Shown here: in pieces, positions 25,304 to 26,518 of the stretch
How positions within the stretch are numbered: position 1 is the first letter of the stretch
Layout: each line of letters opens with the position of its first letter
DNA from: Candidatus Doudnabacteria bacterium RIFCSPHIGHO2_01_FULL_46_24
Lineage (GTDB): Bacteria > Patescibacteriota > Doudnabacteria > UBA920 > O2-02-FULL-48-8
Direction of reading: 5' to 3'
Length of the DNA: 35,887 bases
Assembly: GCA_001777575.1 (NCBI GenBank)
Contig: MFEL01000004.1
Span: 1 to 35,887 of the forward strand
Program-made: the position numbers and the translations under genes
Notes under the pieces: model-generated
Seen by the model: only the letters and a program-made list of their open reading frames with translations
What the model was told of the DNA's origin: nothing
Databases searched by the model: none

Positions 25304-25660
25304 TTAGGTGCTTTTATTATAATCCCCCGGATTAGACACGACAATTGCAATTCCGAGAATTATATACAGATCAGCCACATTGGCCCTAAACAGAGCAAAA
25401 TCTAAAAAATCACGGACCGAGTCAAAAAATATTCTATCCAACAGATTTGAAATGGCCCCGGCAAAAATCAGAACCAACCCTAAGCTAAATTTCGGATCTA
25501 AAGCTTTTCTCTCGAGATAAAAATAACCCAACAGCACTGCTAAAAAACCGCTGACCAAAAACAGATGGGGAAGATTGGAATTCAAAACCAAAAAGCCACG
25601 AGGGACGATTGCCTTCGTGACTTGGTCGAGTAAAATCAAAATTAAGAATGTTCGATACAC
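25304..25660 (-). CDS. lspA: Signal peptidase II (short)
   Basis: GAISNLLDRIFFDSVRDFLDF...FRANVADLYIILGI: catalytic Asp motifs. Confidence 0.8.
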   Translation of the reverse strand: MYRTFLILILLDQVTKAIVPRGFLVLNSNLPHLFLVSGFLAVLLGYFYLERKALDPKFSLGLVLIFAGAISNLLDRIFFDSVRDFLDFALFRANVADLYIILGIAIVVSNPGDYNKST

Positions 25661-25995
25661 GTGTCTGCTTCCGGTATTGCAAGCAAGCGGCCTTCTTCGA
25701 TGTCATCACCCTTCACGCATTTGCCGTAAGTGCCGTCTTCGATCCGCTTGAGCGCTGAGTCGACTTTCACCAATTTCTTTTCCATGTCTTGGGTCACTGC
25801 CAGGTTGGTTTCATAGAAAGTCATCTCGCTGGCGTTCTCATCTTCTTTGGAGCCGAACTCGGGAAACCGAGGTTTGTATTCTCCTGGATACGCTCCTGTT
25901 CCCTCATTGTCTGAATCAAAGCCAAGAATCGCGCGAAGTCTTTTTTTCTCCGCCAGTAGTTTTTCTCTGTTCTGTTCAATCAGTTGCTTATCCAT
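25642..25995 (-). CDS. DksA/TraR family zinc-finger-like regulator
   Basis: Coiled-coil N-terminus and RIEDGTYGKCVKGDDIEEGRLLAIPEADTCIEHS. Start at ATG 25995 preceded by TATAAT-N6. Confidence 0.85.
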   Translation of the reverse strand: MDKQLIEQNREKLLAEKKRLRAILGFDSDNEGTGAYPGEYKPRFPEFGSKEDENASEMTFYETNLAVTQDMEKKLVKVDSALKRIEDGTYGKCVKGDDIEEGRLLAIPEADTCIEHS

Positions 25996-26019
25996 ATGCA
26001 AATTATAACAAAAAAAGCC

Positions 26020-26483
26020 TCATCGGCCAATATCTTTGTGTCCTATAACGTTTTAGTGGTTACAGGACGGTATCATACCGTCCAAAATATATATTGAGTG
26101 ACGAGATACCGCCCTGTGGGCGGCCTCTACTTCAAGCTTATCTCCGCCTACAGGCTTCAATTCCGACGAGGTGTTGGAACTCAAGCCTGAGGCAGAGGTA
26201 AACATTCTAGAGTAGAAACCGATAAAAATGACTTATATATCTAGTCAATTTATAAGTGCAGGTTCTTCACTGTCCTTGTGGTGGTTAACACCTAACAATT
26301 TTATTTTATGTTTGTTTTTTTTGAACAAACCTTGAATTTTTGTTTTTGTTTTACAGGCAGCTGGACTAGAACAGCTCTGACGAATAGTGGAGAACGCCTG
26401 AGGGTCAACAATGACTGTTAACTATTAACTGCCCCAAGCACACTCCGCTATTCTCTAAATAATGCTTGAATTTTCAATGTTCT
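26020..26483 (-). ncRNA. Candidate long structured non-coding RNA between recA and dksA
   Basis: Promoter just upstream (TTGACA-17-TATACT on minus), no substantial ORF in the track, and multiple long hairpins including a rod of about 26 bp. Confidence 0.6.
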
Positions 26484-26489
26484 ACCAAT

Positions 26490-26518
26490 AGTATAGCAAA
26501 AAAACTAAACGTTGTCAA
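26490..26518 (-). promoter_or_regulatory. Strong sigma70-type promoter for the recA-dksA intergenic RNA
   Basis: Minus: TTGACA (26518-26513), 17 bp ending TGC, TATACT (26495-26490). Confidence 0.8.

Follow-up and report, generated by a model that had tools for sequence, protein, structure and literature searches.

The gap between recA and a dksA-like gene on the minus strand of a Candidatus Doudnabacteria (Patescibacteria) genome, which comprises 847 kb and whose completeness is rated 100%, probably encodes, as a gene of its own, a non-coding RNA (ncRNA) of about 470 nt, which, judged from the sequence, would form the core of an abundant, trans-acting RNA-protein particle made in the manner of rRNA and active in general gene expression. 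The window, that is the whole stretch of DNA analysed, covers 35,887 nt, and the gene order on its minus strand is recA (27543-26521), the gap, the dksA-like gene (26001-25642) and lspA. The protein encoded at 25642-26001 (minus strand) has no Pfam match, and the name DksA hence denotes likeness only; its zinc-finger cysteines look degenerate. A sequence-only reading of this DNA had proposed here a long regulatory or housekeeping ncRNA with its own promoter and without a substantial ORF, and this proposal is supported by the lack of an Rfam match, by conservation throughout the class and by strong covariation. No conserved ORF was seen in the gap, a 50-aa ORF at 26053-26205 being without counterpart among the listed ORFs of the relatives, and a coding role was rejected, as the relatives share no ORF. 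The 482-nt transcript folds to -158.9 kcal/mol as compared to a mean of -109.5 kcal/mol for shuffled sequences (z = -8.0; 0 of 100 shuffles as good), the sequence-only reading having predicted local folding almost throughout, and the inverted repeats previously listed were found where they had been placed. The elements of the locus, in the order of transcription, are the following.

26490-26518, minus strand: sigma-70-type promoter TTGACA-17-TATACT, immediately after the recA stop.
26483 (approximately) to 26010, minus strand: the ncRNA gene in the gap between recA and the dksA-like gene.
26472-26482, minus strand: boxA-like antitermination element GAACATTGAAA, beginning approximately at the expected transcription start.
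26382-26453, minus strand: P1, the 5' stem-loop GAATAGCGGAG / CTCCACTATTC.
26382-26389, minus strand: P2 5' strand CACTATTC, pairing with 26268-26275.
26359-26376, minus strand: P3 hairpin AGCTG-TTCTAGTC-CAGCT, with 100% of cells paired.
26364-26370, minus strand: kissing loop L3, TCTAGTC, complementary to L6.
26337-26352, minus strand: A-rich strand AAAACAAAAACAAAAA, whose core ACAAAAACAAAA is kept across families.
26310-26330, minus strand: predicted P4 hairpin GTTTGTT/AACAAAC inside the A-rich region, which varies among families.
26280-26292, minus strand: P5 hairpin GGTG/CACC, with covariation.
26268-26275, minus strand: P2 3' strand GGACAGTG, closing this long-range helix.
26232-26256, minus strand: P6 hairpin CTTATA/TATAAG, with 100% of cells paired.
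26240-26246, minus strand: kissing loop L6, GACTAGA, complementary to L3.
26122-26220, minus strand: P7 rod, GGTTTCTAC/GTAGAGGCC and CTCTGCC/GGCGGAG, with compensatory pairs in families f1 and f2.
26069-26110, minus strand: P9, the 3' hairpin, with outer helix GGTATC/GATACC, inner helix CGTC/GACG and an AT-rich loop.
26010-26028, minus strand: terminator-like end, GGCC-GATGA-GGC followed by T7, with a weak stem in the window; GGCTTTTTT is conserved in f1.
26002-26030, minus strand: promoter-like site TTGGCC-17-TATAAT of the dksA-like gene, separate from the promoter of the RNA.

By DNA search, the gap is present in all 14 genomes of the host family, one copy being cut by a contig end, and the order recA, RNA, dksA-like gene is retained in 12/12 copies with both flanks, lspA coming next in 11 (for L012 and L014, the contig stops short). 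A first covariance model, built from 14 core sequences and a region of about 150 positions, gave strong matches in 46 of the 50 genomes of the order, which amounts to the whole class, and in all six of its families, usually with one copy per genome and with weaker second matches in G041 and G028. The main helices are backed by covariation. Both sides have changed in 5/8 pairs of P2, where CACTATTC/GGACAGTG of the window is replaced elsewhere by AACTTCTC/GAGAAGTT, TACTGTTC/GAACGGTA and other pairs, and three to four of the five pairs of P3 are compensatory. For P2, P3 and P5 taken together, 10/17 pairs are changed on both sides, with 158 such cells as compared to 57 in shuffles, or 138 as compared to 48 within the class alone, in alignments that were fitted to the covariance model and are thereby biased toward the structure. 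Here and in the alignments of the 3' part (below), the compensatory pairs exceed those in 500 of 500 shuffles, and sliding the partners of P2, P3 and P5 by one to three columns abolishes the signal. Between these helices, the A-rich strand forms near-invariant columns in alignment A1 and is found in distant families too. Counterparts of P1, judged by eye, and hairpins corresponding to P6 occur in other families.

The 3' part was assessed on model-free alignments, in which 12/32 pairs are compensatory in f1 and 42/80 in f2, the structure for f2 having been predicted from the same alignment. The inner helix of P9 is compensatory in 4/4 pairs in f1, and this hairpin, an inner helix capped by a loop rich in A and T, has the same shape in f1, f2, f27, f40, f57, f64 and f22. 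Of the structure drawn in the sequence-only reading, stems b, d and e (P3, P6 and P7) are borne out by the comparative data and stem a (P1) in part, its 3' strand overlapping the 5' strand of P2. Stem c (P4) falls into the A-rich region, and stems f and g compete with P9; a 3' switch formed from f and g was considered, but P9, which covaries, is the likelier structure. That drawing was also incomplete, as it lacked P2, the kissing loop between L3 and L6, the boxA and the phylogenetic spread.

The loops of P3 and P6, L3 and L6, are complementary to each other by at least five contiguous pairs at the expected place in 53 of 55 copies, and by at least six in 49. This pairing is realised in 27 sequence combinations, such as TCTAACC/GGTTAGA and TCTAATC/GATTAGA in sister species, and CCAATC/GATTGG, TTAAGCC/GGCTTAG, TCCAACC/GGTTGGA, ACCAGC/GCTGGT, CGACGA/TCGTCG, CCGATC/GATCGG, GCGATC/GATCGC, CCGATA/TATCGG and CCGATT/AATCGG elsewhere. 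When loops were swapped between families, at least five pairs remained in 30% and at least six in 13%. In a permutation test with 28 representatives, the observed sum of 172 was reached by none of the 10,000 permutations, which averaged 116.7 and went up to 136.5 at most, for a contact that had been spotted by eye before testing and with the P3 loop set by hand in three f40 copies, for which the script chose a competing hairpin.

Second and third (R3) covariance models were run on 389 genomes of the phylum, the first-look filter scoring seven candidates per genome, and copies outside the class were accepted by their anatomy in f8, f10, f27, f40 (four genomes), f57, f64 and f145, which places relatives of the RNA in seven further families of the phylum at the least. 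The kissing pair holds in all five families found only with R3 (f8, f27, f57, f64 and f145), and as L6 lies outside the search models, it serves as an independent check on them. A pattern for the P3 hairpin was found in eight genomes and in none with the reversed control. The f22 copies L119 and L120 are tentatively taken as the same RNA, since the hairpin, the A-rich strand and the 3' hairpin appear to fit, with P2 not located. Both contain, far downstream, a hairpin GGGGCTCCC-GGATCGCTC-GGGGAGCCCC whose loop is complementary to the P3 loop and which is possibly a displaced kissing partner. Among the weaker matches, L089, L095-L100 and L110-L112 were discarded as false: the majority resemble coding sequence, and no kissing loop is present in the nine examined for it, which show at most five L3-L6 pairs (0/9 reaching six). 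Searches of plasmid and viral contigs returned nothing. Of the 389 genomes searched with R3, no more than about ten from other classes yielded the RNA, and its spread may hence be patchy. The designation lineage-specific, which had been suggested as a possibility, is too narrow, given the relatives found elsewhere in the phylum.

The promoter, which had been noted from the sequence, matches 11/12 consensus bases, carries an extended TG, and has counterparts upstream of the RNA in 12/12 full-length copies of the family and in most copies of the class. Between promoter and RNA, a boxA-like element is present in 36 of 47 promoter-bearing loci as compared to 0.2 expected from shuffles, by a pattern that was partly fitted to the data. 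The published boxA consensus GYTCTTTAANA (PMC5725501) occurs without any mismatch in the upstream stretch of 12/45 loci, where 0.05 are expected; other families of the class have it in exact form. Only one further exact match was found in 269 kb with both strands counted, so that 12 of the 13 sit between promoter and RNA. The locus has its boxA just 3' of the promoter and inside a transcript predicted to be untranslated, as in a boxA-led stable-RNA transcription unit. BoxA elements are not exclusive to stable RNAs. The leader of the genome's own 16S rRNA gene has the boxA-like AGACATTAAAAACC and GCACTTTAACAACTGAA, and NusB (L127) and S10 (L134) are encoded in the genome. A single-sequence search with one query did not find Rho in the genome, so that boxA may not act here in its customary way against Rho. 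The 16S and 23S rRNA genes (L136:247-501, L124:1-1407 and L128:1-191) are both split by contig ends. The 16S match spans about 1400 bases where the model has 937 positions, and this gene thus appears to contain an insertion; inside the 23S rRNA gene, a group I intron was matched. At the other end of the ncRNA, a strict terminator scan of 26010-26028 gave no match.

The arrangement of the locus could also suit a long 5' leader of the riboswitch or attenuator type, which would control the dksA-like gene and lspA and use its 3' hairpins as a switch. Such a role would fit with the dksA-like gene as the next gene in nearly all class copies (mostly so in f2-f6) and in f8, with the alternative 3' stems in the window (f and g versus P9), and with the lipoprotein genes nearby, lspA here and lgt in some of the other families. 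However, this linkage to the dksA-like gene is lost outside the class: the next gene is lgt in f22, f27 and f64, gmk lies divergently in f10 and f145, with a convergent ssb in f10 as well, and the neighbour in f40 is gmk or an unknown gene. Besides, the promoter-like site of the dksA-like gene, which follows the terminator of the RNA, ends 7 nt before its ATG, and a boxA together with a fold this large is unusual for leaders. Since the neighbours vary between families and the dksA-like gene has a promoter-like site of its own, an independent trans-acting RNA is favoured and appears more likely than a leader, which we regard as unlikely. The DksA-type neighbour pointed out in the sequence-only reading does adjoin the RNA, but the link is probably a coincidence, given that the adjoining genes differ in other families.

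A strongly diverged version of a known housekeeping RNA is less likely still, 6S and SRP RNA being the candidates. Scanning the window with Rfam (release 15, 4227 models) gave three tRNAs only and no match in the gap; up to E = 10, the window RNA gave chance-level hits of miRNA type and similar, far below gathering scores, and up to E = 0.5 its distant homologues gave none. This agrees with the earlier failure to place the RNA as tmRNA, RNase P, SRP or canonical 6S RNA. The genome has its own tmRNA (RF00023, C14:6829-7208) and class A RNase P RNA (RF00010, C10:106650-107024), and these two candidates were rejected. In G001, a sister family member that is 94% complete, no tmRNA passes the cut-off; apart from G012, a tmRNA is present in the rest of the family. 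The models for 6S (RF00013) and small SRP RNA (RF00169) were negative in 21 class genomes, the former also in the window RNA, so these two roles look vacant; the 6S model misses 9/14 control genomes too, and its silence is therefore weak evidence. 6S RNA is a rod of about 190 nt with a central open bubble that binds RNA polymerase, whereas the consensus fold here is multi-domain and about 470 nt, hence two to three times longer, and has no single open-bubble rod. As to SRP RNA, the S-domain with its helix 8 is missing here, and no SRP RNA was found in the approximately 760 kb of the 847-kb host genome scanned with all of Rfam. Searches of the genome (G000, L121-L170) by motif and by phmmer with single query sequences gave neither Ffh nor FtsY, so that no SRP RNA is expected, and a signal recognition particle may be missing from the class. 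The most improbable reading is that of a ribozyme or of an RNA that processes itself. It would be consistent with the complex fold, the tertiary contact that locks it and the unpaired bases that hardly vary, but known ribozyme families do not match, there is no sign of mobility, and each genome has only one strong copy. Hfq was considered as a protein docking on the AACAAAAAC repeat, an idea given up since a single-sequence search of the genome turned up no Hfq.

The most likely function is thus that of a housekeeping-type RNA of an RNA-protein particle that would be made like rRNA. As read from the sequence, transcription would start from the RNA's own promoter and pass directly into a boxA of the rRNA kind; P2 would close a domain holding P3, the A-rich strand and P5, followed by P6, whose loop is predicted to pair with the P3 loop and lock the fold, and then by the P7 rod, the 3' hairpin with its AT-rich loop and an end resembling an intrinsic terminator. 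RNA polymerase modified by NusB and S10 would transcribe it as it does rRNA, making the RNA abundant and trans-acting. Around this RNA, an RNA-protein particle with a part in general gene expression would assemble, and a partner would most likely dock on the exposed ACAAAAACAAAA strand. An RNA present in almost every genome of the class and also elsewhere in the phylum likely has an indispensable task. Patescibacteria make up a very large part of the known variety of bacteria and have tiny genomes; to our knowledge, little of their RNA biology has been worked out, and few large conserved bacterial RNAs are without an assigned role. It is possible, though rather doubtful, that the Patescibacteria (CPR) have in it a housekeeping RNA of ancient origin that is as fundamental to their reduced cells as 6S or SRP RNA elsewhere, with rRNA-like synthesis, a kissing-loop fold and a role in some core process, these cells being apparently without SRP, Hfq and Rho, and that most copies outside the class are missed by the present models. 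The kissing loop, the A-rich strand and the boxA offer direct experimental handles.

No description of this ncRNA was found in the open-access papers searched. OLE, GOLLD and ROOL are large ornate bacterial RNAs (PMC12286853, PMC9723947), which are reported in PMC12286853 to form homo-oligomeric complexes. The RNA described here is like them a large structured ncRNA from a single gene without an assigned role, and differs in its hosts and in that the Rfam models do not match it. We know of no description of a boxA leader, the A-rich strand or the layout of P2 and L3-L6 for these RNAs. The raiA-motif RNA, or ModT, is similarly structured, widely conserved and encoded by its own gene, and is reported from Bacillota and other phyla (PMC11706538); its Rfam model likewise does not match the present RNA. 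LOOT RNA (RF03000) is present in the same genome (L136:19538-19663, minus strand, 74.5 bits), but is 121 nt long, lies at another place and has no match to the window RNA. Leaders of rRNA operons share the order of promoter and boxA, whereas here sequence other than rRNA follows. As an RNA family, the RNA of the gap is without a known relative, and in its broad kind it is one of the large structured ncRNAs.
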